From a virus: 30,864 bases of DNA. The translations under genes were made by a program, and so were the position numbers. The DNA lies in IMG/VR virus record IMGVR_UViG_3300009008_000168, positions 1 through 30,864 of that record. One strand, 5' to 3'. The notes under the pieces are model-generated. The model was not told the DNA's origin, did no database searches, and saw only the letters and a program-made list of their open reading frames with translations. Numbering within the stretch: the stretch's first letter is position 1; each line of letters opens with the position of its first letter. Below are positions 5,859 to 30,864 of this stretch, piece after piece.

Positions 5859-6034
5859 GTTTTGAAAACTTAACAGAAGACCAACTAGTGAATTCATTGC
5901 GCACTACAACAGACCAACTTATACTGATATCAGGTAAGTTAGAACCGTTAATAGTTGAATACGATAAGCTTAAGGAAGAATTTAACAGCATACAAGAAGA
6001 ATTGCAATCTAGGTTAGGGTCTACAGATGGTTGA
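5855..6034 (+). CDS. Hypothetical small coiled-coil protein, 59 aa
   Basis: ATG at 5855 overlaps the previous stop (ATGA). The product begins MSFENLTEDQLVNSLRTTTD and runs through a continuous acidic helix (YDKLKEEFNSIQEELQSRL) to its end, with hydrophobics spaced every three to four residues, consistent with a coiled coil. Its stop overlaps the start of the OB-fold baseplate gene by 8 bp, a coupling repeated throughout this operon. The family is not recognised. Confidence 0.62.
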   Translation: MSFENLTEDQLVNSLRTTTDQLILISGKLEPLIVEYDKLKEEFNSIQEELQSRLGSTDG

Positions 6035-6395
6035 CTTTATAGATGTAGTACGGAACACAAAAGATGCAACACAAATAAAATATCACAAGACGATATACAT
6101 TGGTAAGGTTGTAAATAATCGAGTTAAAAGTGGCTTGATAGAATATGCTCGCAGAATCCAAGTTAGAATTGAGAACGTAGATGACATATTGTCAGATGAC
6201 CAACTCATATGGTGTTTTCCACTGGTACCACCACACAGCGATATATTTCCCGAAATAGGTACATCAGTTTTCATTATACCAGAAGATGTACAGAAAATAC
6301 ATGGCCGGAGATTTTATATTGGTCCAATTACTGTTGGCCATGGAGATTCTGGAGATGGTTATGACAACATTAAGGATATAGTGTATAATGACTAG
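6027..6395 (+). CDS. Baseplate spike/hub OB-fold protein, gp5 N-domain-like
   Basis: The 122-aa product has the layout of the N-terminal OB domain shared by T4 gp5 and VgrG-type spikes. A strand TIYIGKVVNNRV is followed by RRIQVRIENVDDIL, then LIWCFPLVPPHSDIFPEIGT and SVFIIPED. The 'xxGxV...VRI...W..P......P..GTSVFI' pattern is typical of phage baseplate OB domains that form the base of the central spike. It is much shorter than T4 gp5 (575 aa): no lysozyme domain and no repeat beta-helix are present in the same chain. It overlaps both neighbours by 8 bp and precedes a second putative spike protein. Confidence 0.6.
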   Translation: MVDFIDVVRNTKDATQIKYHKTIYIGKVVNNRVKSGLIEYARRIQVRIENVDDILSDDQLIWCFPLVPPHSDIFPEIGTSVFIIPEDVQKIHGRRFYIGPITVGHGDSGDGYDNIKDIVYND

Positions 6396-6981
6396 AGAGG
6401 GAAATGTAAAGTATCAAGGTAGATCTAAGAGTGGATTGCTGTTTAAGCATGATAACACAGTATTGCTGTCTAATAATTTTGAAATAGCAAGAATAGGTGT
6501 CCAGAGATATTCTACAATCGTTGATGCTTCTATTGGTTATTTATCTATATCACAGCAACCATGGCCAAAGGCCTTAGACAACGACCCTCTCAAGTTATTA
6601 CAGGGACACATAGACAATGACATACCGCTGAGTGCTGTTACATTGCCAAGACCCGATAACACGATAACGACATTAGATATATCTGCGCCGGTTATAATGT
6701 TGAGCAGCATGTATAGTGAAGCTCAGCATTTTAAGTTGTCTGGTGGCCAACATACTGAAGTTAAAGACCAAGGGATAGTATACGGTGACAACTTAGTTAA
6801 GCTTCTAAGATGGATGTTGGACGTATTACAGACACACACGCACCCGCCAAACTCTCCACCTACCACACCGGTTCCAGTTTTTGCTGATAAAATAAGCGGA
6901 GAACTAGCTGTTCGCAAAAAGCAAATGGACACAGTAGGGAGCGAATTCAACATTTTGAATTATTTTGTCCGAAGTAAATAG
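6388..6981 (+). CDS. Putative baseplate/spike-associated protein with THTHPP motif, 197 aa
   Basis: The product is beta-rich, with a long N-terminal region containing SIGYLSISQQPWPKALDNDP and a middle stretch DISAPVIMLSS. It then shows LVKLLRWMLDVLQTHTHPPN followed by a Pro/Thr-rich segment (SPPTTPVPV). The motif 'LLxWMxxxLxTHTHPPxxPP' is one I associate with T4-like baseplate proteins encoded next to the gp5 OB protein. The His-x-His-x pattern could bind a metal ion at a spike tip, which is inference. Its short C-terminal helix ends FNILNYFVRSK. It overlaps the OB gene and is followed by a candidate late promoter. Confidence 0.5.
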   Translation: MTREGNVKYQGRSKSGLLFKHDNTVLLSNNFEIARIGVQRYSTIVDASIGYLSISQQPWPKALDNDPLKLLQGHIDNDIPLSAVTLPRPDNTITTLDISAPVIMLSSMYSEAQHFKLSGGQHTEVKDQGIVYGDNLVKLLRWMLDVLQTHTHPPNSPPTTPVPVFADKISGELAVRKKQMDTVGSEFNILNYFVRSK

Positions 6982-6988
6982 TCACTAA

Positions 6989-7002
6989 GATATTTATATC
7001 AT
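6989..7002 (+). promoter_or_regulatory. Candidate late promoter, copy 2 (divergent end)
   Basis: GATATTTATATCAT shares the GATATTTAT core with the sites at 5122, 18417 and 27306. It lies in the 37-bp gap between the stop at 6981 and the ATG at 7019 of the gp25-like gene, with RBS AGGAG at 7008-7012. Its last four bases depart from the ATAA found in the other copies. Confidence 0.5.
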
Positions 7003-7018
7003 ATATTAGGAGAATTAT

Positions 7019-7429
7019 ATGAGAGTATCTGAGAAGATTAAGCGAGCTAATACTAAGCTTGGCATATCTGTGCCAATCAAACTGGCACGTAGTTCAGGTT
7101 TATTTGAAGCATCGACGACTAGTATAGACAAATTCAAATCTAATCTATATGTTGCACTGATGACTGGGTTGGGTTCAAGAATTATGAATCCAGACTTCGG
7201 GTCGATAATTCCAAATTTAATGTTTGAGCAGATGGAAGACGATGTCTATAGCAATATTACTTCGTCTATCAAGCATGTCGCAGCTAAATACACACCACAG
7301 TTGAATCTAGACAACATTGAATTCCGGGATAAAGAAACTAACCAAGACGACAATAGAATAGAAATTTCTATAGATATATCATTGATGAAAGATTCGTCTA
7401 TTACAGAGAATTTGAGTATAACCCTTTAG
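7019..7429 (+). CDS. 25: Baseplate wedge protein, gp25/gpW family
   Basis: The 136-aa product matches T4 gp25, the baseplate-wedge member of the gpW/gp25 lysozyme-like family (about 130 aa). The central motif NLYVALMTGLGSRIMNPDFG with SIIPNLMFEQ contains the hallmark 'GsRxMxPxFGSxIxxLxFE' turn, and a C-terminal strand region (NRIEISIDISLM) follows. In T4-type baseplates gp25 nucleates the sheath against gp6. It sits directly upstream of gp6, the same order as in T4. RBS is AGGAG at 7008-7012. Identification is strong. Confidence 0.9.
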   Translation: MRVSEKIKRANTKLGISVPIKLARSSGLFEASTTSIDKFKSNLYVALMTGLGSRIMNPDFGSIIPNLMFEQMEDDVYSNITSSIKHVAAKYTPQLNLDNIEFRDKETNQDDNRIEISIDISLMKDSSITENLSITL

Positions 7430-7438
7430 AGGAACAAC

Positions 7439-9286
7439 ATGGCAAGCCCACAGATAAATTATTTGAATAGAGATTATAAATCTTTAAAAGCAGACTTACA
7501 AGAATACATCAAACTATATTATCCAGACCAGTACGCAGATTTTAATGAAGCATCTATCGGCATGATGATGCTAGAATTGAATGCATATGTGGGCGATATA
7601 TTGTCTTATCATGTCGACTCAAAATTCAACGAGTTGTTCTTAGATACAGCTCAGTCTAGAAAGTCTGTGATACAGTTAGCAAAAAATCTTGGGTATAAGG
7701 TTAAGGGTAAGAAGGCATCTTCAGTTCTAATAGACTTATCAATTGTCGTTGGCCCAGAGGGAGATAGCCCCGACCCTGCATACTTGTTGCGATATGACGC
7801 AGGAATGCAAGTAAAAGCTATAAATGGTACTATCTTTGAGATATCAGACCCTATAGATTTTTCTAGTCATTATAGCGTTCATGGCACATTGAACAGAACG
7901 ATCGTTCCAAATTTCGATGCTGACAACAATATTGAGTCATATACGATAACAAAGCAAGAGCTAGCAACAGCTGGCAAATCAGAAGTGTTTAGTAAACAGC
8001 TAACATCTGACTTAATTAAGCCCTTCATGAACATAGCAATCTCAGATGACGTTTTAGAAATTCGAAACGCAGTCACTCTAGATACTTCATCTCCACCAAC
8101 ATCAGAGTCTGCGTGGTTAACATCTGGCAACGTTTGGTATGAAGTACCAAATCTATCAGACAGTAAAGTTTTCGTTGAGACTAATGAAAGTACACCGACC
8201 AATGTTGTTGGACATTGGTTAGATGCTGAGAGGCGGTTTATATCTGAGTATAATGAATTGGGGACTTGTAGCATTACGTTTGGGTCTGGTGAGCAAAACT
8301 TTGACATGTTCTCAAATTGGCTGAATGCTACAGACACTGCTCCAGATCTAACAGAGCTATTAAACGCTAATTCTTTAGGCGTAATACCAGCAACAAATAA
8401 GTGGTTACACGTGAGATACAGAACTGGTGGTGGTTCTGCGTCTAATGTAGCAATGAATACAATCAACAAAGTAACATATATGCCACCAATCACAACAGCT
8501 GGGAATCCCGTAGCATCAACGCTGAATAGTGTAATTTCGTCTTTAGTAGTAAATAATCCGATACCTTCTGTTGGTGGTGCAGAGTTTGAGACTGCAGACG
8601 AAATTAGATATAATGCATCTTCATATTTTGCAACACAAGATCGGTGTGTAACTCTTGAAGATTATAGGTCTAAAATAATGTCAATGCCTGCTAAGTATGG
8701 GAGTGTTTATCGGTCATATGCAACGGCGAATTCTGATACAGATTTGGGTGGCGTTAAATTATTTTTACTTACTAAAGATGCAACTGGTAGGCTTCAAAAT
8801 ACTGATAATGAGTTAATATATCAAAATGTTGCAAGTTACTTAGAGAAGTATAGAATGATAAACGACTTTATTACTTTAACTTCTGGACAAATCATCAATC
8901 TTGGTATAGATTTTACTGTACACGTCGAGAAGCATGTAAACAAGCAGCATTTAATTTCTCAATGCATTTTAGAACTCAAGAATTATATGGATATAGCAAA
9001 TTGGCATATGAATGACACTTTGTATATTAGCAACATTAGTGACATATTGAAGAGTATTCCCGGTGTAGTTAATGTAGTAGAAGTTAAGCTTAAGAACAAG
9101 TTTGGTGGCGACTATAGTAATTTCATTTTGCCATCAGTAAATAGCAAATTGTCTAACTATGCTGTTGCCACTAACATAAACAATGAGGCAGAAATTGTAC
9201 CAACGAATAACCAGATACATTCATCTCCAACATCGATGTTTGAGATAAAGTATCCAGAGCGAGATATCAAGGGGCGGATAGTTTAA
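7439..9286 (+). CDS. 6: Baseplate wedge protein, gp6/gpJ family
   Basis: The 615-aa product is close to the length of T4 gp6 (about 660 aa). It starts INYLNRDYKSLKADLQEYIK, then has DFNEASIGMMMLELNAYVGD and LSYHVDSKFNELFLDTA, followed by NLGYKVKGKKASSVLIDLSI. These are the recognised N-terminal helical motifs of gp6/gpJ-type baseplate wedge proteins. The C-terminal region SVGGAEFETADEIRYNAS, then ATQDRCVTLEDYRSKIMSMP matches the family's conserved 'GGaexEs.deir..ap..f.tqdR.VT.eDY' block. gp6 forms the inner iris of the baseplate. The RBS is AGAGGA at 7428-7433. The stop and the next start share a base (TAATG). Confidence 0.9.
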   Translation: MASPQINYLNRDYKSLKADLQEYIKLYYPDQYADFNEASIGMMMLELNAYVGDILSYHVDSKFNELFLDTAQSRKSVIQLAKNLGYKVKGKKASSVLIDLSIVVGPEGDSPDPAYLLRYDAGMQVKAINGTIFEISDPIDFSSHYSVHGTLNRTIVPNFDADNNIESYTITKQELATAGKSEVFSKQLTSDLIKPFMNIAISDDVLEIRNAVTLDTSSPPTSESAWLTSGNVWYEVPNLSDSKVFVETNESTPTNVVGHWLDAERRFISEYNELGTCSITFGSGEQNFDMFSNWLNATDTAPDLTELLNANSLGVIPATNKWLHVRYRTGGGSASNVAMNTINKVTYMPPITTAGNPVASTLNSVISSLVVNNPIPSVGGAEFETADEIRYNASSYFATQDRCVTLEDYRSKIMSMPAKYGSVYRSYATANSDTDLGGVKLFLLTKDATGRLQNTDNELIYQNVASYLEKYRMINDFITLTSGQIINLGIDFTVHVEKHVNKQHLISQCILELKNYMDIANWHMNDTLYISNISDILKSIPGVVNVVEVKLKNKFGGDYSNFILPSVNSKLSNYAVATNINNEAEIVPTNNQIHSSPTSMFEIKYPERDIKGRIV

Positions 9287-10593
9287 TGGGAACATTTAGA
9301 ATATATGCTGATAAGACTAATTGTATTTTAGAAGATCAGCCAACCAAGAACACTGGCAACAATGAAGTAGCAGAATTATGGTACGGTGAAAATGGCGTAT
9401 CACGTTTTCTTGTTCGTTTTGATTTGACGGATTATACCACTTATTTAGATTCTGGAATCATCCCGTCAGGTGCTACTGCGACTCTAAATTTGAAAAGCAT
9501 GCCAACTCTTGACACATTAGAAGCAGAGATGGCAACAAGCTTTGAGTTAGAAGTTTATTCTGCAGACACAGAATGGCATGAAGGAAACGGTTACGCATTC
9601 AATAATCCAGACAGTATAGCTGACTATTCTAATTGGAATTCAGCAACGACTGTTATTGCTTGGCAAACACCTGGTGGCGATTATTCTACATCGTTTGGAT
9701 CTCAAACGTTTGATAAAGGCGATGAAGACATTGCGTTAGAACTCCCTAGCGACCTCCTGAGCGAATCTTGGCAGACAAGTAATAATGGTATATTGGTAAA
9801 ATTTTCCGCCGCGCATGAGGCTTTGACGGGCTCCACACAGCAAATCAAAAAGATTTTCACAAGACATACTAATACTTTATATGACCCTTACATAGAATTA
9901 GAATGGGACAGCACTATTCGTGACAATTCTGATGAGATATATGAAGAGAATGCTGTAAAATTATTCTGTTACATTACAAGTGGCGGGGAACTGTCTGACC
10001 CATTTAACGTTGAATCTTGTAACGTTTACTCTGGCAATCCAATAGACTTGGTGAGTGGTTATACCTTTCCTGATATACAGAAACACGACATTGGGGTATA
10101 TTTTGTAGACTTTGTGGGTACAGACTTACCCGAAAATACCGACATTACGATATATTGGAATATTACACCACTAAAGAGTGGTGGACGATCTATTACTCTT
10201 ACATCTAGTACCACAACAATTGGTGACCCTTGGACTAATACATCGTCTCCATCGCACTCAGCTACAAACTATATGTTAACGATGCCAAACTTAGAGGGAT
10301 CATATACACAAGGTGAGAGACGGAATATCACAGTCTTAGCACGAGAACAATATCAATCGTCAACGACTGTTCTCAAAGATTTAGAATATAGAATTATCAT
10401 CAAGGATGGGACTATCACGCATGGCATTGTACCTTGGACTGATGTCAACTATTCGTCTGGTGAGAATTTTATCGCTCTTGATACGACTTGGATGCCAACT
10501 GGCCAGACATACAATCTTGAGTTACGGTATAATGGAAACGATATCATTTACAATGAAGATGCATTTACAGAGCGAAAGTTTAAGGTACTATAA
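9286..10593 (+). CDS. Putative structural protein with DNRLRE-like beta domain, 435 aa
   Basis: The first about 205 residues resemble the DNRLRE/disaggregatase-type beta-sandwich: FRIYADKTNCILEDQPTKNT at the start, FLVRFDLTDY, a 'SGATATLNLKS' strand, ELEVYSADTEWHEGNGY, and a terminal PYIELEWDS. The second half (residues 210-435) is a string of beta-strand segments with Ig-like spacing. This kind of protein usually caps or decorates surface structures. It lies between gp6 and the gp7-like gene, where T4 has no equivalent, so it may be a peripheral baseplate component or fibre adaptor. The domain call is from pattern only. Coupled translation with gp6 (TAATG) supports a virion role. Confidence 0.55.
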   Translation: MGTFRIYADKTNCILEDQPTKNTGNNEVAELWYGENGVSRFLVRFDLTDYTTYLDSGIIPSGATATLNLKSMPTLDTLEAEMATSFELEVYSADTEWHEGNGYAFNNPDSIADYSNWNSATTVIAWQTPGGDYSTSFGSQTFDKGDEDIALELPSDLLSESWQTSNNGILVKFSAAHEALTGSTQQIKKIFTRHTNTLYDPYIELEWDSTIRDNSDEIYEENAVKLFCYITSGGELSDPFNVESCNVYSGNPIDLVSGYTFPDIQKHDIGVYFVDFVGTDLPENTDITIYWNITPLKSGGRSITLTSSTTTIGDPWTNTSSPSHSATNYMLTMPNLEGSYTQGERRNITVLAREQYQSSTTVLKDLEYRIIIKDGTITHGIVPWTDVNYSSGENFIALDTTWMPTGQTYNLELRYNGNDIIYNEDAFTERKFKVL

Positions 10594-19004: not shown

Positions 19005-20669
19005 ATGGCCACAGCATTATTTTCAATACCAAGTAATTCAAACACAGTCAATATAAACGAGACTATACAATTTACCAATTTATCTATTGACTATGCTTCA
19101 TGTATATGGGAGTTTGGAGATGGTTCAACATCTAATTCTATCAATCCTGTTCATGAATATTTATCTGATGGCGTATTCAACATAACATTGACTGTGTATG
19201 ACTCTATTGGCGCAGTTGCTGCAACAACCTCTCAGAATATAACGGTTACCATGGTATCGGGTGATGACCCAGTTACGACCGTTCAAATGCCATTAAACGT
19301 ATTCAAAAGATTCGACCCGTCTGAAGTTGGAGTTATTCATCGTGCATTAGCTGGATCTAATCTGACTAGCAACTATCCATACTCATCATCTACAGATTAT
19401 AATGAAGATATAAGTACCACCTCGATTGATACATTTCCTGCTGGTGAGATCTTATATTCTTCAACTACGACTGGCCACTATTTACGAGCATCAGTAGCAG
19501 ATGATGATACAGACAGAACATTACCAGACTCTGGCCAATCAGTCGACTATGCAGTCTTTACAGATGGCTACATACAAGACGGCATCGAAAATGATGATAC
19601 ATATACTGCTAACACTTTGAGAATGTTCAATTGTATGGATACATCTCACAACATTTATGGTACATTGATATCATCTTCAACAGTTGGAGTCCAAGGCCAA
19701 ATACAGAGATATGGTTATTGGGGCTCAGGGCAAGCATTGTCGTTCTTATATCCAAATTGGTCAGGCATGTCTGTTGCTGAGAAGTTTAATGCAGGCGAAA
19801 CATCGCTGACGTTACCTTGGGTAACTGATGTTGGTGGCAATCTTAGTATAACAGCTGATGACACACAAGACGACACACAGATTGACGCAGCGTCTGGTAG
19901 TAGATATAGACCATTGAGATTAACTGGGTCTTCTACGATGATTGGTAAAGTATTCTATGATGAAAAACGAATCATGTTAGATGATCCAGAGTATGCACGA
20001 ATCATGTGTTATAATGCTAATAGGTCAAAGATATTGCCAAGACATTCTTTAGCTTTACACACCTTAGACCAAGAATACATCGGGGACCCCGTAGTATATT
20101 ACGTTACATATTGGGTTCATGATAACACAGATGCAGTTAACATTAAACCAGCACCATGTGCATATACAGAAAGAATTGTAGACACGAGAGCTGCTTCTGG
20201 TTTAACTGTGTCAATTCCAGCAAGATCATATACTGGAACTAATGTTGATGTAATTTTCGCAACTGGGACGACGTCAACAGACTATCCGGCAAGCGGCCCA
20301 TATTATGTTGCAAACGTCGAAGCATCTACAGACGCAATAACTGTTGACATAGACTTAACAGCTGCCACGACTGGATTCACAGCCGGACATTATGTACCTG
20401 GTGGAGAAATTGGGTCTGAGTGGTTGGGGTGGGGCTATTTAGATTACAGTTTAGAATCTGACATGTACACTATGATGGCTGTATGTATTGGCGACCAGGG
20501 AGAGTTTAACCAAACTCAAAATCCGACATATATTGTGGGTTCAACTTATGTGACAGAGGTTGGACTATACAATGAGAATGACGACTTAATTATGATAGGT
20601 AAGCTAGATTCGCCTATTGAAGTAGACCAGACAAAATATGTTACAGTAAAGTTAGAATTAGACTTATAG
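19005..20669 (+). CDS. Tail-fibre-like protein, type B, with N-terminal PKD domain, 554 aa
   Basis: Residues 2-82 form a PKD domain: VNINETIQFTNLSIDYASCI, then WEFGDGSTSNSINPVHEY and FNITLTVYDSIG show the family's 'WxFGDGxxS...PxHxY...G.FxVTLTVxD' framework. The middle region is long, beta-rich and unrecognised. The C-terminus YVTEVGLYNENDDLIMIGKL, then DSPIEVDQTKYVTVKLELDL matches the last about 40 residues of the gene at 21396. PKD domains mediate binding to proteins or polysaccharides on cell surfaces, so a role in host-surface binding is plausible. PKD domains in phage tail proteins are less common than Ig-like ones. The RBS is weak (AGGGAATT at 18995-19002). Confidence 0.65.
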   Translation: MATALFSIPSNSNTVNINETIQFTNLSIDYASCIWEFGDGSTSNSINPVHEYLSDGVFNITLTVYDSIGAVAATTSQNITVTMVSGDDPVTTVQMPLNVFKRFDPSEVGVIHRALAGSNLTSNYPYSSSTDYNEDISTTSIDTFPAGEILYSSTTTGHYLRASVADDDTDRTLPDSGQSVDYAVFTDGYIQDGIENDDTYTANTLRMFNCMDTSHNIYGTLISSSTVGVQGQIQRYGYWGSGQALSFLYPNWSGMSVAEKFNAGETSLTLPWVTDVGGNLSITADDTQDDTQIDAASGSRYRPLRLTGSSTMIGKVFYDEKRIMLDDPEYARIMCYNANRSKILPRHSLALHTLDQEYIGDPVVYYVTYWVHDNTDAVNIKPAPCAYTERIVDTRAASGLTVSIPARSYTGTNVDVIFATGTTSTDYPASGPYYVANVEASTDAITVDIDLTAATTGFTAGHYVPGGEIGSEWLGWGYLDYSLESDMYTMMAVCIGDQGEFNQTQNPTYIVGSTYVTEVGLYNENDDLIMIGKLDSPIEVDQTKYVTVKLELDL

Positions 20670-21395: not shown

Positions 21396-22493
21396 ATGGC
21401 AATACAAAGATTTAAGACACTAACTGGTGAAGACAGTTTTGCTGGGCGTGTAAAAACATATGGTAATACTGTTACCAAAGCTGGCGAAGATATATCATTT
21501 TATTATGTTACAAATCCAGGTGGAACAGATTATAGCACAGAAGATATGAGAGGATTATATCATGCTTTTGGTCTAGCTGGCGACTCTGGAGACTGGTACA
21601 ATTCTTTTAATATTTCAGACCACATTAATGCTGGAGACATGGTTGTTGGGTCTTTTGCGACTGCAGAAGATCTCGGTACATATGTCCAAGGTAACACTGT
21701 GCAGATAACAGTACCAACGGGCACTAGTGGCACTGACTTGGTAAAGTATTATGGTTCTACATGGAATTCAGCTTCTGTTGACACAACAGATGAACAATTG
21801 GCATCTGAGTTTCATCCAGTGCATAGAGATCATGGTTCAGCAATTGCATTCTTGTTTAGTGGAGATAGGTGGACAGGCGAAACAAGTGATTCATCAATGA
21901 ATCCAGCAGTAAATACCTGGGAACCAGCAACTCCGACCACTTTGCATCACAAAGCAACTCTTAAGCATAACGCTGCAGACGGAGTAGGGGATATACCAGA
22001 GGGTATCTGTTTCCTAGAAAAGGGTTTATTCTGTATATTTGATAATACGAATAGAGAAACGACAGCAGTATCAAGCGGCATGTCATCTGACAGCATGTGG
22101 TCTAGTACTAATGCCAATTTCATAGCTACAACATTTACTGGTGGATCTTCAGAACAAAATACTGATGGAGCTCACCGTGACAATATAGTATTCACAGGAA
22201 CTGGCGCAGAGTCCAACTGTATTGTTTCATATAACACTGTAGAAAAAGAACACAAGCTAGTTTACTTCTGTCATGCGAAACCTTCAGAGTTTAATAGTAC
22301 ATCAAACCACACATACGATCATCAAAAAGCATTTTATCGTCCAGATGAAGCAGACCCATTGTACATAACAGAGGTTGCGCTGTACAATACTAATTTGAGT
22401 AAGCATAAGCCGATTGCTTATGCTAAACTGTCGGAACCAGTTGAGAAAACTAAATTCGATACGTTAACTCTTAAGGTTGAGATTGTAGTTTAA
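21396..22493 (+). CDS. Tail-fibre-like protein, type B, without PKD, 365 aa
   Basis: The C-terminal about 40 residues, DPLYITEVALYNTNLSKHKP, then IAYAKLSEPVEKTKFDTLTL, match the end of the PKD-bearing 554-aa protein at 19005. The N-terminal region is different: it starts IQRFKTLTGEDSFAGRVKTY and has no PKD domain. The 'ITEVxLYN...xIxxxKLxxPxxK' signature resembles the C-terminal strand of tail-fibre and collar-type domains. It ends the tail-fibre unit and is followed by an intrinsic terminator. Function beyond 'virion surface protein' is not supported. Confidence 0.58.
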   Translation: MAIQRFKTLTGEDSFAGRVKTYGNTVTKAGEDISFYYVTNPGGTDYSTEDMRGLYHAFGLAGDSGDWYNSFNISDHINAGDMVVGSFATAEDLGTYVQGNTVQITVPTGTSGTDLVKYYGSTWNSASVDTTDEQLASEFHPVHRDHGSAIAFLFSGDRWTGETSDSSMNPAVNTWEPATPTTLHHKATLKHNAADGVGDIPEGICFLEKGLFCIFDNTNRETTAVSSGMSSDSMWSSTNANFIATTFTGGSSEQNTDGAHRDNIVFTGTGAESNCIVSYNTVEKEHKLVYFCHAKPSEFNSTSNHTYDHQKAFYRPDEADPLYITEVALYNTNLSKHKPIAYAKLSEPVEKTKFDTLTLKVEIVV

Positions 22494-22517: not shown

Positions 22518-22547
22518 GGGCCAAGATGAAATATTCTTGGCCCTTTT
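22518..22547 (+). terminator. Intrinsic terminator after the tail-fibre block
   Basis: A 9-bp perfect stem, GGGCCAAGA (22518-22526) pairing with TCTTGGCCC (22535-22543), encloses an 8-base loop and is followed by TTTT. It lies 25 bp after the stop at 22493 and directly before the promoter of the ruvC-primase unit, so it separates late and earlier transcription. Confidence 0.9.
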
Positions 22548-22579
22548 ATGTTTACATTGTGAGAGTCCTATTATATTAT
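22548..22579 (+). promoter_or_regulatory. Sigma70-like promoter of the ruvC-primase unit
   Basis: ATGTTTACATT (22548-22558) contains TTTACA (22551-22556). TATTAT at 22574-22579 follows after a 17-bp spacer. The same box and spacing precede thyX. It begins right after the terminator T-run. Confidence 0.62.
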
Positions 22580-22606
22580 ACAGTTATATGGAAAGAGGTA
22601 TATTAT

Positions 22607-23140
22607 ATGATCTTAGGTTTAGATGTTAGTACGTCTGTGATTGGTATTAGCGTTATTCAGAAAGATGGCGCATTAGAAGCATTAGAATTTGTCAATCTTA
22701 AAAAAGAAAAAGATCTGTTTATGAAAGCGTTGATATTCGCTAATCTTATAGACAAGTATAAGACGATGGGTGTTACAGATATAGTTATAGAAGAACCACT
22801 AGTTATGTTTCAACAGGGCATGTCAAGAGCACAGATCATTTCTAAATTGTCAATGTTCAATGGTATGATCCAATACGCATGTTATTCAGTGTTTGGCATT
22901 TTGCCTACTCTCATTCATGTGTCGACTGCTAGAAAACTAGCATGGCCAGGTTTGAAGTTCCCAAAGGGTTCAGATCGTAAACATTTAATTTGGGAGCAAG
23001 TAGACAAGATGCATCCAGATATAGAGTGGAAGTTTTCTCAGCGTGGCAAGCGTGAGGGTTTACCCGCTATGGAATGTTACGATATGGCAGATGCATTTAC
23101 CGTGGCCAGAGCAAGAAAAGTACAATTAGAGAATGAGTAG
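22607..23140 (+). CDS. RuvC-like Holliday junction resolvase
   Basis: The 177-aa product begins MILGLDVSTSVIGISVIQKD, the RuvC/RNase-H-fold first strand with catalytic D6. A second strand has DIVIEEPLVMF (acidic E62/E63), a middle helix follows, and near the C-terminus ECYDMADAFTVARAR provides D159 and D162. These four acidic positions are the expected metal-binding set. The enzyme would cut four-way junctions in replicated or recombined phage DNA before packaging. T4 uses the unrelated endonuclease VII (gp49) for this. The start at 22607 is preferred because RBS AAAGAGG lies at 22592-22598; an upstream in-frame ATG at 22526 sits inside the terminator. It overlaps the primase gene by 8 bp. 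Confidence 0.8.
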   Translation: MILGLDVSTSVIGISVIQKDGALEALEFVNLKKEKDLFMKALIFANLIDKYKTMGVTDIVIEEPLVMFQQGMSRAQIISKLSMFNGMIQYACYSVFGILPTLIHVSTARKLAWPGLKFPKGSDRKHLIWEQVDKMHPDIEWKFSQRGKREGLPAMECYDMADAFTVARARKVQLENE

Positions 23141-24044
23141 AGTTGTAAGTATACTCAATGAAATCTTTGGGTTCTCTAGGTCATATGATTCTGGAGATTC
23201 AGCAGTACAGTACAATTGCCCACATTGCGATAAGGGCCGAAACAAGTTTAATCTGTCGATAAGTTTAGAGAAGCAGATTTTCCACTGTTGGTCGTGCCAT
23301 TATAAGGGTCGAGTATCAAAGCTGTTATATGATTTTGGTTCTGCCAACCACAAAGAACTCTATTTTTCTGAGCAGAAGATACAAAAGCCAAAGAAGCTGG
23401 AACCAGTTCTAGAACCAATAAATATCGGCCCAGTTAGAAGTATGAAGCATGACTGGGGTAGCATTCATTATTTGAACGCAAAAGCATATCTTAATAAGCG
23501 CGGGATAAACCAAGCTATGATAGAGAAGTGGGATATGTGTTATGCAGAAAAAGGCCCAAATGCTAATCGGATAATTATACCAACGAAGTCAGAGAACAAT
23601 GAGTTGGAATTCTTCTTAGCTCGTTCATTTTATGACTATGTTAAGCCGAAGTACCGTAACCCAAAGACTCCAAAGTATGACATGATATTTGGCGAACAGT
23701 TAGTAGATTGGAATAAGACAGTCGTGTTGACAGAGGGCATTTTTGATTCTATTATTTTGTGGAATAGTGTACCATGTTTAGGTACAGATTTAGTACCATA
23801 CCAAAAACTGGTACAGAAAATTGTAGATAATGACACACCAATCATAATAGCTTTCGATAGAGATGCTTGGGCTAAAGCAAGAATTGCTTATAAGCATTTA
23901 GAAGATTTAGGCGTCAATGTTAAGATAGTCAAGCATGAGAAAGTAAACGATTTATCTGATGGATATGAGCTTTATGGTAAAGAGTACATTGTAGATCTAC
24001 TCAAGTCAGCAACAACAATAAGTGAGTTAGATCATTTGTTCTAA
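23133..24044 (+). CDS. DNA primase, zinc finger plus TOPRIM (T4 gp61-like)
   Basis: The 303-aa product has an N-terminal zinc ribbon: C29-P-H-C32 and, after a short strand, H51-C52-W-S-C55 followed by HYKG. The C-terminal TOPRIM domain has VVLTEGIFDSI with E201 and D205, and IAFDRDAWAKARIA with D242 and D244, the metal-binding residues of the fold. This is the layout of the T4 gp61/DnaG-type primase that makes RNA primers for lagging-strand synthesis at the replication fork. The length is close to T4 gp61 (342 aa). It overlaps the resolvase gene by 8 bp and shares its promoter. A helicase partner (gp41-like) is not in this window. Confidence 0.85.
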   Translation: MSRVVSILNEIFGFSRSYDSGDSAVQYNCPHCDKGRNKFNLSISLEKQIFHCWSCHYKGRVSKLLYDFGSANHKELYFSEQKIQKPKKLEPVLEPINIGPVRSMKHDWGSIHYLNAKAYLNKRGINQAMIEKWDMCYAEKGPNANRIIIPTKSENNELEFFLARSFYDYVKPKYRNPKTPKYDMIFGEQLVDWNKTVVLTEGIFDSIILWNSVPCLGTDLVPYQKLVQKIVDNDTPIIIAFDRDAWAKARIAYKHLEDLGVNVKIVKHEKVNDLSDGYELYGKEYIVDLLKSATTISELDHLF

Positions 24045-24111: not shown

Positions 24112-27100
24112 ATGGCACGCATAGCACACATGGCGGATATACATATTCGCATAAATTCACGACACAAAGAGTATCGAGAAGTATTTGAGAGAGTATACGA
24201 TAAGCTTATTGAAGAAGAAGTAGACCGCATAGTAATAGCTGGAGATATTGTCCACTCTAAGAACAGAATGTCTCCTGAGCTTACAGACTTAACAGCTGAG
24301 TTTTTTACTCGACTAGCTATGATAGCACCAGTAGATATTATTCCTGGGAATCATGACACAATCATTTCTAACCAAGACCGATTAGATGCATTATCACCAA
24401 TTGTAGAGTTAGTAAAAAAAGATAAAAAGTTACACAGTATAACTTATTTTACTAAAACTGGTTTACACGAAATAGACGACACAGACATTGTGTATGGAGT
24501 ATGGAGTGTTCTTGATGGTGATATTCTCAGATTAAAGCCCACAGAAAAGCAAGATGACAAAACATACATAGGTCTTTATCATGCACCAGTTTGGGGATGT
24601 GTAACAGACGTCAACTATTCAATGACAGATGATACTGTTACGCCAGTTTCAATCTTTGCTAATTTCGACATAGTCATGTTGGGTGACATCCATAAGTATC
24701 AAACATTTAGAGATGATGAAACTATAGTATACCCTGGTGCACTTTTACAGCAAAACTTTGGAGAGTCATTAGATAAGGGCTTCGTTATCTGGGACACCGA
24801 AGAGAAAACTCATGAAAGAGTCATAGTCCCGAATGATTATGGCTTTTATACTGTATACTTAGATGAGTCATTAGAGATTCCACGATTATCAGATGTTCCA
24901 CCCAAATGTAAAATGAGAGTTATCGCAGAGACAGAATCAGTTTCAAAGTTAACACTATCAAGAATCACTACAGAGATAAAAGCTAAATACAGTCCAAGAT
25001 CTCTCACTGTAAACTTCAAACCCAAGCATGTTGAAAATGAGTTTGGAGAAATGGCACTTTCTGGCATACAAGATGTTAGCTTATTAGAGGTTCAACAAGA
25101 GTTACTACAAAAGTGGTTAGAAGCTAAAGCGACAAACGCTGAAACAGCAGATGCTGTGATTGGTTTAGACCATAAGATCTATGAAATATTGGGAAATTCA
25201 AAAGAAGCAGAAGATTTTACTAAAGCAACATGGTCTATAGATAAACTAGTAATATCCAATTTTTTATCATATGGTGAAAATGAATGTTTAAACTTCAAAA
25301 GTAAGAATGGAGTAATTGGGCTATTCGGAGATAATGCAGTTGGTAAGAGTTGTGTTTTCGACGCGATACTGTACGCACTATTCAACAAGACAACGCGAAA
25401 CGTTAAGAATTCTGAGTTGATAAATAAATTCAACAAAGCGAAACAATGTACAGTTGAGTTAGATGTATGCATTAACGGTGAATTATACAAGATTGTTCGA
25501 GAAACCAAGAAAAAGTTTAGAGCAAGATCTAATGAGTATGTTGGAGTAAGAACCTCTGTAGAATTTAACAGATATGAAGATGATAAGTGGGTTAACTTAT
25601 CAAGCACTCAACGAAGAAAAACAGAGAGAATCATACGAAATGCAGTTGGAGTTTACGATGACTTTTTGACAACGACTTTTTTAGCTCAAAGTGAAGACTC
25701 CAATCTGATAGGCCAAAAAGCTGGAAATTTGACTGAAAGTATGATTACTATCTTGGGTCTAGACGTGTTCTTGAGGAAGAACGATATAGCATCATCTGAG
25801 TTAAGAGATCTTGTTTCACAAGCTAAGAATGTTAACATCGCAGAACACTCTACCATGCTAGCAGAATTAGTGAAACAGAAGCAGACCCTATTGTCTAAGA
25901 CTAAGAACATAGAAGCTCAGAGAATAGCAACAAGAGAAACATTAGACACCATTACAACGTCTATTTCAAATTTGCAGTCCTCTATGAATAGGGAGTACAA
26001 TGTAGATTGTACACATGAGGAGATTGTCAATAAGATGATCGCAGTTGAAGCAGAAATAGAAATTGCTGAAGCTGATGTTGCTAATCTAGAAAATGCTATA
26101 GAAGATATAGACAATAAATGCAGTAAAGCAACAAAGCTATTGTTATCAGCTGATGAACTTGCAAATGCTCAAAAGACAGCTAAAAAGCACACATGGTATC
26201 TAGATCGTATTGGACAATTGACTGTAGAATTATCAGCTCTCACTACAGAAAAGCAAACTCTAGAATTAGAAATTGAACAAAATAAATGCCCAATTTCTGA
26301 GCATCTCGGTACTAAGACTTGTGCTTTATTAGACTCAATCTACAAGAAGAAGTTAAGGTTAAGTGATGTTATAGATAGAATACAAGCAATTGAGTCTGAT
26401 ATTCGAGCATCTGAGACTGGCAAGCTTCTATCACGACAATCACCGCTAGTAGTCGAAACACAAGAAACTATTCGCGGAAAGATAGCATCTGTTGCTCCGG
26501 TTAGAAAAGAACATGTTACAAGGTGTGAACGTATTAAGTCTATGCTTAAGACTAAACGTGTTGAGGTTCAACTATTACAACAAAAGCGAACTATGATAGA
26601 AGCCAACATAGACATTGTAGAAAACAACCAAAGGGTATCTACAGAGATTAACGAGTTAGTAAAGAAGCAACATGTCATAACTGTCGAGTTAGACCAGTTA
26701 GACTCAGATAGATTAGCTAAGAACAGTGCTTTAGCTGTTTGTGAGGATAATCTTGCGACAACAACAAGCGAGCTAGAGACTATCAAAACGAATCAAAAGA
26801 AGATAAAGATTTACGAGATGTATACCTCAGCAATGAACCGCGATGGTATAGTATTGTCTGTGCTTAGACAATACATCCCAATTATCAATTTTGAGTTGAA
26901 TAAAGTGATAAGCAACATTTTCGATTTTGGTATATACTTCAAAATGGGTGAATCTGCTAAAGATATACGCATAATTCTAAATTATAGTGAAGGCGATGAC
27001 AGACCAATTTCTATGGGTTCTGGGATGGAAAAATTGATTGCCAACGTCGTTATCAGATCTATTCTAATTTCACATAGCAATCTGAGTAAGTCAACGATGC

Positions 27101-27306
27101 TCTTTATAGACGAGGGCTTTGGAGTATTAGACCCTGAGAATATCTACGCTATACAGAAAATGTTTGAAGAGTTGAAGATAATGTTTAAGAATATAATCAT
27201 CATTACGCATATCGACGCAATGAAAGATTTAGCAGACCACTCAATCTTGGTGTCGAAAGACAATCATGTGTCGAAATTGAACACAGACAATTTCATATCT
27301 CAGTAG
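24112..27306 (+). CDS. Fused Mre11-Rad50 (SbcD-SbcC; T4 gp47-gp46) recombination nuclease
   Basis: One 1064-aa chain carries both subunits of the end-processing nuclease that in T4 are separate proteins gp47 and gp46. The N-terminal part (about 1-370) is an Mre11/SbcD phosphoesterase: D9-I-H11, G44-D45, G79-N-H81-D82, H157 in LYHAPVWG and G-D192-I-H194-KY. The C-terminal part (about 380-1064) is a Rad50/SbcC ATPase: Walker A GDNAVGKS (406-413), a Q-loop FLAQSED, long coiled coils with a central hook near C726, a signature SMGSGMEK (967-974), Walker B LFIDEGFG (D1000, E1001) and H-loop ITHID (H1033). The reading frame is unbroken. The zinc hook is not CxxC. The enzyme makes 3' single-stranded ends for recombination-dependent replication. 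Confidence 0.9.
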   Translation: MARIAHMADIHIRINSRHKEYREVFERVYDKLIEEEVDRIVIAGDIVHSKNRMSPELTDLTAEFFTRLAMIAPVDIIPGNHDTIISNQDRLDALSPIVELVKKDKKLHSITYFTKTGLHEIDDTDIVYGVWSVLDGDILRLKPTEKQDDKTYIGLYHAPVWGCVTDVNYSMTDDTVTPVSIFANFDIVMLGDIHKYQTFRDDETIVYPGALLQQNFGESLDKGFVIWDTEEKTHERVIVPNDYGFYTVYLDESLEIPRLSDVPPKCKMRVIAETESVSKLTLSRITTEIKAKYSPRSLTVNFKPKHVENEFGEMALSGIQDVSLLEVQQELLQKWLEAKATNAETADAVIGLDHKIYEILGNSKEAEDFTKATWSIDKLVISNFLSYGENECLNFKSKNGVIGLFGDNAVGKSCVFDAILYALFNKTTRNVKNSELINKFNKAKQCTVELDVCINGELYKIVRETKKKFRARSNEYVGVRTSVEFNRYEDDKWVNLSSTQRRKTERIIRNAVGVYDDFLTTTFLAQSEDSNLIGQKAGNLTESMITILGLDVFLRKNDIASSELRDLVSQAKNVNIAEHSTMLAELVKQKQTLLSKTKNIEAQRIATRETLDTITTSISNLQSSMNREYNVDCTHEEIVNKMIAVEAEIEIAEADVANLENAIEDIDNKCSKATKLLLSADELANAQKTAKKHTWYLDRIGQLTVELSALTTEKQTLELEIEQNKCPISEHLGTKTCALLDSIYKKKLRLSDVIDRIQAIESDIRASETGKLLSRQSPLVVETQETIRGKIASVAPVRKEHVTRCERIKSMLKTKRVEVQLLQQKRTMIEANIDIVENNQRVSTEINELVKKQHVITVELDQLDSDRLAKNSALAVCEDNLATTTSELETIKTNQKKIKIYEMYTSAMNRDGIVLSVLRQYIPIINFELNKVISNIFDFGIYFKMGESAKDIRIILNYSEGDDRPISMGSGMEKLIANVVIRSILISHSNLSKSTMLFIDEGFGVLDPENIYAIQKMFEELKIMFKNIIIITHIDAMKDLADHSILVSKDNHVSKLNTDNFISQ

Positions 27307-27340: not shown

Positions 27341-27994
27341 GTGAGTAAACAATACAAATCCATAATTCATGATTTGACTGTTTTTGGAGTAACAAGCATT
27401 TCAAAAGCCATGGTCGTTGGAGAAGTAGACGATGACATAGTCATGAAAGTTTCTTTCAATGGTGGGGCATCATATCGTGATGTTCAACTTTACAACCAAT
27501 TCTCAGTAACTGGTAACGGCAAAATAAGATTTACTCTCGATTTTCCAGAATCTACTAGCGCAGATCCATACATGATAAGATGTACTGGTAAATATGAGCA
27601 GCTTGGCATAAGTACACCATTAGTATTTGTCAACCAAACAACCCAGCAAGAATTTCACACGGTGATAACTGCTGGTGGATTTTATAGCGTCAATTTACCA
27701 CGTGGACTATACATTGTCTATCACGTTAACTCTCGTTTAGAGCGTGTCGAGTTAACGCCATATTTTAACACAGACAACATGTCGACCCATCGTGCCAATC
27801 AGGCGCGGTCCAAGGAGCTTGCGGTCGATTTAGAATTAAGAGATAACGATTGGGCAACATATGCGATAGTTGACGATTTTGGCGATGGAGAGAAAGCAGA
27901 CATGTCGTCGACTGTTGAGTATGATAGAGATGGTAATATTTACGATGGCATTACAGATAGAAAAGCAAAATATATAGGGATCTTATTCGCATGA
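27341..27994 (+). CDS. Hypothetical virion-associated protein, 217 aa
   Basis: The start is GTG at 27341 with RBS AGAGGT at 27330-27335; the nearby ATG at 27336 is out of frame and closes after two codons. The product is beta-rich: QYKSIIHDLTVFGVTSISKA at the start, RGLYIVYHVNSRLERVEL in the middle and DITDRKAKYIG-like acidic turns near the end. I do not recognise it. Its place after a late-type promoter and its 4-bp overlap (ATGA) with the long tail-fibre gene suggest a fibre-proximal structural or assembly protein. No coiled coil or signal peptide is visible. Confidence 0.55.
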   Translation: MSKQYKSIIHDLTVFGVTSISKAMVVGEVDDDIVMKVSFNGGASYRDVQLYNQFSVTGNGKIRFTLDFPESTSADPYMIRCTGKYEQLGISTPLVFVNQTTQQEFHTVITAGGFYSVNLPRGLYIVYHVNSRLERVELTPYFNTDNMSTHRANQARSKELAVDLELRDNDWATYAIVDDFGDGEKADMSSTVEYDRDGNIYDGITDRKAKYIGILFA

Positions 27995-30864
27995 AAATAG
28001 ATAAACTTAAACATGGCGAGTATACGCTATTAAAGAAAACAGTTACAGAAGAGCAAATATCTCATAGTTCATTAGACAATTTATTAGCTGACGATCATCC
28101 TCAATATGCACTAAGAAGTTATGTAGAAAGCTTGTTTGAGACGATGACACCAGAACAGCAACAAGCAAGCGGAGAACAGTTTGTCGACGAAATATCTCAA
28201 ATTATTTCAACAGAAATAAATTCAAATATTCAAGGTATTACAGTAACTGATGTAAATCCAACAGACAATCAAATTTTGCAATATGATGCAGAATTGAATA
28301 AGATTATCTGGGAAGATATTGTAGCTGATGAAATAGATGATGAGCATATTTTAGATTTGATTGCCACATATGATTGGGGTGATGCTATTCCGACTCACAC
28401 TCATACGCATCAAACTTTACAGGGTGCTGGCGTATATCCCCATAAGGGTAATGGCATTACGATAGATAGTCACATTGACGACGCAGATATTCACTTCACT
28501 GAAGCATCTATAGATATTTCTAACATTACTTCTGCACATACACACTCACCGGAAGAGCTAGAATATGGTGATTGGGATAATTCTGGTTATGGAATAACAG
28601 CAGATACTTTACATTTACATACTGGGTTAACCATAACAGATGACGTCATCATTAATGAGAATATAAGTTTAACCGGAGACCTATCGGTCACGAATCTATA
28701 TACAACCGGAGAACACCGGATAACTGGTACTACTTACATGTCTGGCACATTACAGCTGCAAAGAGATGGTGCAGAACACGCGTGTATTTTATCTGACCAC
28801 GCGGACGGACAACTTAGAGTACAAAGTGATGCTGGTTATGTAGACATTGCACCAGCTAATTCAGGTTTCTGCCATTTTCATACAGATAGAGGTAAATACT
28901 ATTTCAATAAGCCTATATATGTTGATGATGGTATTGTTGCTGCATATTTTCATGACTTACAGTTGGGAACTCACACCGAAGATGGAGTCTATGAACCTGG
29001 TCTTACGATAGATGAAGATACTAGAAATGTTAATATTCCAAATGATTTAACTGTAGATGAAGAATTATATATGTATAGCGGTTATAATTTAAGAGATCAT
29101 CTATTAGTTACATCTCAAGTCGGAATTTATGACGGTTTAATGACATATGGCTTAGATACTGGCAACCAAGATGCAGTTGATAGATTTTGGTACCACAATG
29201 ATTATGTTACGTACTCATTGACTGGTCACAATGGGAATCCATGCTATGTTCTATCACGCAGTGCAGCAACAATATATAACCTATCGAAAGATTTTATACC
29301 AGTTGATACTAGTGAACCATATAAGCTAAAGGTATCGCTAAGGTCTGACCAATATGACACCAAGCTGTATGTTGGTGCCTTGTGTTACGATTCCGATAAA
29401 ACTTTTATCGGTTCACCGTCGACGAGAGTTTTTGACGATACACTCTCTACAGTTTGCTCTGCAATTACAGCTGGAGATGATTACGTTATCTTTAGTGGGT
29501 CAGACCCTAGTATGTGGCATTTTTCCGAAGATGAATCATCAGTCCAGACGTACAATAGGAAGCTGGCGTTTTATGATTACACAAACAGTAACGGGTATAC
29601 ATATCCTGCTGGTACATATTATGGCAATAGACATACAGACCAAGTGGATTACCCAGGTTGTGAGCACTATGGCGACAATGGAACCTGGGCAACTGGTGCT
29701 ACATCGGGAGCTTCTGGCTGGGAAGTTGAAGAAAGTACAGGGTTCATAAAACTCAAACTAAGCCGGTTATGGCCATCTGGTGGTGACCCAATACCAGTAG
29801 GGACCAAAATGGCGAATGGTTCAGCAGGTGCATCTTGGAATTACTTTGTTTTGAGCAACGAGTACTTAACTGCGGCTACTGAAACAACTGGTTGGACTGA
29901 GTATGAAGCTGTAATTAGTGGTGAGGCTACATATAGTGGTAACCAATTCAGGAGTGGGACCAAATATGTTCGACTCGGCATATTGTGTACACAAAAAGAT
30001 ATACTTAGAACTGTTTATGTTTCCAATATGTCATTTTCACAACAACCGAAAAACTTTTACACAGACATGTTGGTAGATGGAGATATCACATCAGACAATA
30101 TGTACGTCGGAGGAGAGATAACTGGTAGTACACTAGATATCACTGGCAGTTCTACTATGACTGACTTAACAGTATCGAATAATATTACCACAAAATCTCT
30201 AACTGTAACAGCAGCTTCTGGCCTAAAACTAATGGGATCCGACCATGGCTATATGGAGTTTTGGGATACAGACCATCCCGGCCGGAGGGGCTATTTTGGA
30301 ATCCCTGGTTCGGACTCACAGAGTTTAAGAATTGGTAACCAATATTCTGGGGCAGAATTTGATGTAATATTAACTGGGAATACGGTGCTAAATGTAACTA
30401 CCGGCATCACGTCCATACGCAACGATTTAATTGTAACTGGTGATACAGTTTTACAAAATCTTACCGGAGAGACTGTACAGTTTACAAACGCATATATAGG
30501 TGCAGATTTGACAGCCTCTACTCTTGAGACTACTGGGATGATAAATGCTAACACAGCAACTATTTCTGGTGGTAGTTTTGTTACTGGCCCCAATGGTACT
30601 GTTCAATGTCAAGCCTTAACATCGTCAACTGCGTTGATAAATGGCCAAATGACATTTGATGAAAATGCAGCAGCAAGCTTTTTGGCGGTCAACAAGATAA
30701 CTGGTGTAGATAGTAATGGGGCTCCAGATAATCACGCCTTGACTGGTTATTTTCACACTATATATTCTCACAATGCAATCGAGGGCGTAGACTTACAAGT
30801 TGGACAGTTCAGGGTAACGGGTCAGTCAGAATTTGGAACTCAGCAGGGTAGTGCATCAGCACTA
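27991..30864 (+). CDS. Long tail-fibre protein, N-terminal 958 aa (runs off window)
   Basis: The frame is open from ATG 27991 (overlapping the previous stop) to the last base, so the C-terminus is missing. The N-terminus has LDNLLADDHPQYALRSYVES, a common tail-fibre linker element. A metal-binding-type HTHTHQ (H136, H138, H140) and DIHFTEASIDISNI (about 166-179) follow. Residues about 430-680 form a jelly-roll-like, carbohydrate-binding-like module (DTSEPYKLKVSLRS, YVGALCYDSDKTFIG, later FRSGTKYVRLGILCT). The rest is beta-repeat sequence with many 'LTVTxxSGL'/'LIVTGDTVLQNL'-type segments, typical of trimeric fibre shafts. It probably binds the host surface; the receptor-binding tip is beyond the window. 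Confidence 0.8.
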   Translation, partial: MKIDKLKHGEYTLLKKTVTEEQISHSSLDNLLADDHPQYALRSYVESLFETMTPEQQQASGEQFVDEISQIISTEINSNIQGITVTDVNPTDNQILQYDAELNKIIWEDIVADEIDDEHILDLIATYDWGDAIPTHTHTHQTLQGAGVYPHKGNGITIDSHIDDADIHFTEASIDISNITSAHTHSPEELEYGDWDNSGYGITADTLHLHTGLTITDDVIINENISLTGDLSVTNLYTTGEHRITGTTYMSGTLQLQRDGAEHACILSDHADGQLRVQSDAGYVDIAPANSGFCHFHTDRGKYYFNKPIYVDDGIVAAYFHDLQLGTHTEDGVYEPGLTIDEDTRNVNIPNDLTVDEELYMYSGYNLRDHLLVTSQVGIYDGLMTYGLDTGNQDAVDRFWYHNDYVTYSLTGHNGNPCYVLSRSAATIYNLSKDFIPVDTSEPYKLKVSLRSDQYDTKLYVGALCYDSDKTFIGSPSTRVFDDTLSTVCSAITAGDDYVIFSGSDPSMWHFSEDESSVQTYNRKLAFYDYTNSNGYTYPAGTYYGNRHTDQVDYPGCEHYGDNGTWATGATSGASGWEVEESTGFIKLKLSRLWPSGGDPIPVGTKMANGSAGASWNYFVLSNEYLTAATETTGWTEYEAVISGEATYSGNQFRSGTKYVRLGILCTQKDILRTVYVSNMSFSQQPKNFYTDMLVDGDITSDNMYVGGEITGSTLDITGSSTMTDLTVSNNITTKSLTVTAASGLKLMGSDHGYMEFWDTDHPGRRGYFGIPGSDSQSLRIGNQYSGAEFDVILTGNTVLNVTTGITSIRNDLIVTGDTVLQNLTGETVQFTNAYIGADLTASTLETTGMINANTATISGGSFVTGPNGTVQCQALTSSTALINGQMTFDENAAASFLAVNKITGVDSNGAPDNHALTGYFHTIYSHNAIEGVDLQVGQFRVTGQSEFGTQQGSASAL

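Follow-up and report, generated by a model that had tools for sequence, protein, structure and literature searches.

Separate Mre11 and Rad50 proteins assemble as an M2R2 complex, so the 1:1 stoichiometry of a fused form is nothing new. Phage T4 (gp47 and gp46) and bacteria (SbcD and SbcC) encode the two proteins in separate genes, as the first-pass annotation of the present DNA had noted and as the T4-type and bacterial pairs examined here bear out. Fusions of Mre11 with Rad50 were described in 2011 by Yoshida, Claverie and Ogata in Mimivirus, Bacillus phage 0305phi8-36, plasmids, bacteria and eukaryotes, in a sample of 13 proteins (PMC3175470). That study described the same architecture, proposed the same kind of role as considered below and gave evidence that such fusions abound in aquatic viruses (PMC3175470). 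No later studies of phage Mre11-Rad50 fusions were found in the open-access literature. The arrangement has been known since 2011 and is not new, and the novelty that the first-pass annotation implied is contradicted both by that publication and by relatives in hundreds of IMG/VR contigs.

The window, a viral fragment of 30,864 nt (IMGVR_UViG_3300009008_000168), contains baseplate wedge genes at 7019–9286. These genes bear out the proposed phage origin and indicate a contractile-tailed phage. An ORF on the plus strand at 24112–27306 starts with ATG and encodes 1064 aa with no internal stops. Pfam searches assigned residues 3–196 to Metallophos (5e-13) and residues 376–1053 to AAA_23/SMC_N, while PHROGs searches matched residues 1–357 to the SbcD-like phrog_100 (1.3e-29) and residues 332–1060 to the SbcC-like phrog_77 (2.9e-53). 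Searches of the PDB, by profile and by single sequence, matched Mre11 and Rad50 structures, each over the corresponding half. The Mre11-Rad50 fusion in this phage is confirmed: as had been claimed from the letters alone, one unbroken frame encodes a complete SbcD nuclease followed by a complete SbcC ATPase, with homologous fused ORFs in related contigs.

Domain boundaries were taken from an AlphaFold2 model built on a 38-sequence alignment, with a mean pLDDT of 80.2 and a pTM of only 0.50, which leaves the relative placement of the domains uncertain. Foldseek with this model gave Mre11-Rad50 complexes as the best PDB matches. All features of the gene are on the plus strand. The Mre11 phosphoesterase domain (residues 1–238; 24112–24825) is supported by the Metallophos match, the model and conservation, and contains D9, H11, D45, N80, H81, H157, D192 and H194, with D9-H11, G44-D45 (GDIVH), GNHD at 79–82 and H157 forming recognizable motifs. 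A putative capping (DNA-binding) domain at residues 240–302 or thereabouts (24829–25017) is placed by predicted secondary structure, position and the usual Mre11 domain order. The model also predicts a C-terminal helix-loop-helix at residues 325–362 (25084–25197; helices 325–338 and 343–362), the putative Rad50-binding element, which in Mre11 contacts the root of the Rad50 coiled coil. Lobe I of the Rad50 ATPase starts at residue 373 (25228–25761) and is supported by AAA_23, the model and conservation, with Walker A at G406–S413 and the Q-loop at Q526. Lobe II (residues 910–1064; 26839–27303), supported by the model and conservation, carries the signature S970-G971, Walker B D1000-E1001, the D-loop L1006-D1007 and the H-loop H1033. 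The two lobes enclose a coiled coil (residues 551–908), in which model helices give an ascending arm at 551–724 (25762–26283) and a descending arm at 738–908 (26323–26835) around an apex at 726–737. The Rad50 motifs lie where the first-pass annotation had placed them. Its Mre11 residues were also all at the positions given, but D192 is noncanonical, the final motif being GDIH rather than the GHxH of Mre11/SbcD and T4 gp47. Catalytic residues are near-invariant among 188 distinct fused sequences, a family set in which each protein has at least 900 aa and the window protein is included.

The two halves are joined by a linker of about 10 residues (363–372; 25198–25227), defined by the model and by spacing in the family alignment. 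Between the same alignment columns the spacing was 9 residues in 165 of the 188 fused sequences and 11 in the window protein. In the Thermotoga maritima complex, the Mre11 C-terminus lies about 28 Å from the Rad50 N-terminus, a gap that 9–12 residues bridge (PMC3175470). The order helix-loop-helix, linker, Rad50, and a linker length that matches this 28 Å argument, are most simply read as keeping the known architecture. According to the model, the join should preserve the Mre11-Rad50 arrangement and fix the pairing of the two halves. The earlier suggestion that fusion changes assembly is unsupported, since the M2R2 complex is already 1:1 and the join sits where the Mre11 C-terminus docks by Rad50.

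Two positions depart from the canonical proteins. In the metal motif GHxH, the first His is replaced by Asp (D192-I193-H194; 24685–24693) in 188 of 188 fused phage sequences, but the His is kept in six separate proteins (T4, S-SM2, A9, EalM132, Moorella and Paenibacillus), the seventh protein compared having no alignment there. The same Asp is present in Mimivirus R555 (PMC3175470). An Asp at this position could still bind metal, and the swap is a naturally occurring change in the Mre11 active site that lends itself to testing. The second departure is at the hook apex, C726-x10-C737 (CPISEHLGTKTC; 26287–26322), a noncanonical zinc hook identified from the sequence and the family alignment, with pLDDT below 50 at 726–736. 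The canonical CxxC is absent from the window protein, in which both Cys are kept at x10 spacing. Two hook Cys are retained in nearly all family members, and among 189 family rows the spacing was C-x2-C in 128 and C-x6-C in 51, with x3, x4, x7 or x10 in the rest. The x10 form is common to the window protein and its nearest relative, L006. Hooks with x6 spacing ('PCGxxFPxC') form a large second class.

The GDxH motif and the C-x10-C hook might make the enzyme a poorer nuclease or tether. It is conceivable, though on balance doubtful, that the phage fusions descend as a single ancient lineage and make up a Mre11-Rad50 class of distinct function, marked by the Asp in the nuclease site and by a hook that has drifted from CxxC up to C-x10-C. 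If so, with the nuclease and the ATPase covalently paired, demands on partner recognition and tethering may have relaxed, altering metal preference or end-bridging. The GDxH motif and the variation in hook spacing are less-described features, and neither makes the finding categorically new.

Because the family is divergent, close relatives turned up in neither viral nor genome contigs when the single 1064-aa sequence was the query; alignment queries succeeded. An alignment-query scan of IMG/VR gave at least 562 relatives, and in the best 80 of these a profile search placed both halves in one ORF (80 of 80), with unbroken full-length frames in 78. Since this set of 80 is biased to full-length matches, each half was also scanned alone. 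The fused form accounted for 78 of the best 80 viral-contig matches to the Rad50 half and likewise 78 of the best 80 to the Mre11 half; the four nonfused matches all run off contig ends, and no complete unfused close relative was present among the best 80 matches to either half. Identity to the window protein is mostly 25–36 % among the 188 fused sequences. A scan of genome contigs gave eight fused matches, every one in a MAG and most on short contigs of possible phage origin; it also gave separate Paenibacillus pairs and, from a Bacteroidales MAG, a lone Mre11 half that is truncated. Plasmid tblastn gave half-length matches only. Within a large aquatic lineage, made up mostly of uncultured phages, the fused form is thus the rule and not sporadic, and it adjoins a primase gene. 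The survey agrees with the view proposed in 2011 that the Mre11-Rad50 fusion has its natural home in viruses.

Some relatives have interrupted frames. In L006, the closest relative among those collected (36 % identity), the reading frame shifts within the Mre11 half at around 6680–6738 (locus 6001–9316), and in a second relative, L029, the frame is broken in the coiled coil; both breaks are inside a half and not at the junction. In the huge phage LR756508 (L004:3671–4588), a 305-aa homing-endonuclease-like ORF interrupts the fused gene within the Mre11 half, which suggests an intron or intein-like insertion.

In a phylogenetic tree with a small unfused sample (seven separate pairs), several long branches and R555 left out, all sampled fused proteins were split from the separate ones by a branch with SH-aLRT support of 100 %. 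In this grouping, the window protein falls with the fused proteins outside the canonical separate ones. The tree is compatible with one origin of the phage fusions but is weak evidence on their origin; in the wider but sparser 2011 sample, fusions were scattered and formed no single clade (PMC3175470).

Such a fusion could be mimicked in assembly or sequencing if the loss of a stop or a one-base indel merged two separate genes, and artefacts of this kind exist. The 'fused' gene of Listeria phage LMTA-57 (AID17555.1; L260:2908–5937) has 3030 bases against 3031 in near-identical relatives, in which mostly two genes are annotated; it is probably the product of a one-base indel due to sequencing error and was not counted. 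For the window protein, however, the same junction is present in 188 distinct fused sequences from independent contigs, mostly only 25–36 % identical to it and with the 9-residue spacing in 165, the half-only scans gave no complete unfused close relative among the best 80 viral-contig matches to either half, and codon-position composition is even across the junction. An assembly join at about 25180–25290, which the first-pass annotation had raised as a check, is in practice excluded, and an artefactual origin is effectively refuted. A real fusion might still work as two proteins, through proteolytic cleavage of the linker or an internal Rad50 start. The linker is exposed and short, and an in-frame GTG (codon 349) and TTG (codon 359) lie near the junction, but neither has a clear ribosome-binding site, no in-frame ATG occurs between codons 314 and 543, no internal Met before Rad50 strand 1 is conserved across the family, and the length of the linker is conserved. 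Separation into two proteins is accordingly judged quite improbable, and the product is taken to be a single chain.

The gene is flanked upstream, on the same strand, by a DnaG-type DNA primase gene (23133–24044; phrog_47, 2e-43) and a RuvC-like Holliday junction resolvase gene (22526–23140; phrog_159, 2e-4). The resolvase probably starts at about codon 28, homologues aligning from residue 28. A strong GC-rich inverted repeat followed by a T-run (22518–22543, plus strand), terminator-like by consensus match only, sets the resolvase-primase-fusion block apart from the preceding gene block. Of the 171 fused loci whose upstream sequence was long enough, 168 have a primase homologue no more than 2.5 kb upstream, most commonly overlapping the fused gene by 4 bases, and a resolvase homologue was found in 80 other fetched fused loci. 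Further upstream in the window, a PKD-domain protein (554 aa; 19005–20669) and its neighbour (21396–22493) have a common C-terminal segment of about 55–90 aa. In many related phages, long proteins encoded ahead of the fusion end in the same segment, which is perhaps a self-processing or attachment tail. A long ORF that runs off the window end (27991–30864) has a weak bactofilin-like match (1.4e-4), below the cut-off.

These data make it very likely that the product is a DNA-end-processing enzyme, a single-chain Mre11-Rad50 (SbcDC), in a myovirus-like tailed phage, probably serving recombination-dependent replication and repair. Two fused chains would probably form the usual M2R2-type complex, in which the Mre11 parts would dimerise, the ATP-bound Rad50 heads would clamp DNA, and the helix-loop-helix and short linker would tie each nuclease to its own Rad50 head. 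The coiled coils would extend to a hook able to join two complexes. Double-strand ends would then be resected or opened, probably to feed the phage RecA, with the enzyme acting alongside the resolvase and primase in the manner of T4 gp46/gp47. Ten phage records of 145–267 kb, including Mel-JY01, each gave no SbcD match and no strong SbcC match other than the fusion; RecA was also present in ten of ten of these large records, the window itself being a 31 kb fragment. The combination of fusion, RecA and resolvase matches the T4 toolkit (gp46/47, UvsX and a resolvase), and by this analogy recombination-dependent replication and repair is the most likely role. A specialised nuclease for counter-defence or degradation of host DNA could be proposed instead, as T4 gp46/gp47 also help host DNA degradation (T4 record annotation) and the GDxH motif might alter specificity. 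Such a function is unlikely, given that primase and resolvase adjoin the fusion in nearly all loci, that no other SbcCD-like gene was found in the large phage records and that RecA co-occurs with the fusion there. No biochemistry for this fused branch was found in the literature. A single-chain Mre11-Rad50 enzyme is convenient to work with: it comes from one gene at a fixed stoichiometry, its partners do not exchange, and nuclease and ATPase mutations can be paired in one chain.

Among described systems, the closest in architecture are Mimivirus R555 and the twelve other proteins of the 2011 study, which have an N-terminal Mre11, a short linker and a C-terminal Rad50 in one chain (PMC3175470); the window protein, likewise, is encoded by one ORF with Mre11 first and a linker in the range of about 9–12 residues. 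The 2011 fusions also resemble it in their occurrence in viruses and aquatic viral metagenomes, with primases on the same metagenomic scaffolds (PMC3175470). By its 2011 description, R555 differs in being 1351 aa long, in having a more extended coiled coil and in a change of the third Asp of GDxxD (PMC3175470). Microcystis phage Mel-JY01 encodes a full-length fused homologue downstream of a primase (WWT39521.1; 1066 aa, 99 % coverage), annotated 'AAA domain containing protein' with the fusion unremarked; it differs in having 26.5 % identity and a hook of canonical spacing (CKHC). Metallophosphoesterase and Rad50 parts also lie together in one long frame in the uncultured huge phage LR756501 (735 kb) and in Tenacibaculum phage pT24 (BAV39141.1, annotated only 'DNA repair'), but these proteins are 1202 and 1310 aa long, respectively, with 22–24 % identity. 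T4 gp47/gp46 and bacterial SbcD/SbcC have the same two domain families, the same nuclease-then-ATPase order and the same expected activity, whereas they are encoded by separate genes, carry GHxH rather than GDxH and, in the case of T4 gp46, are much shorter.
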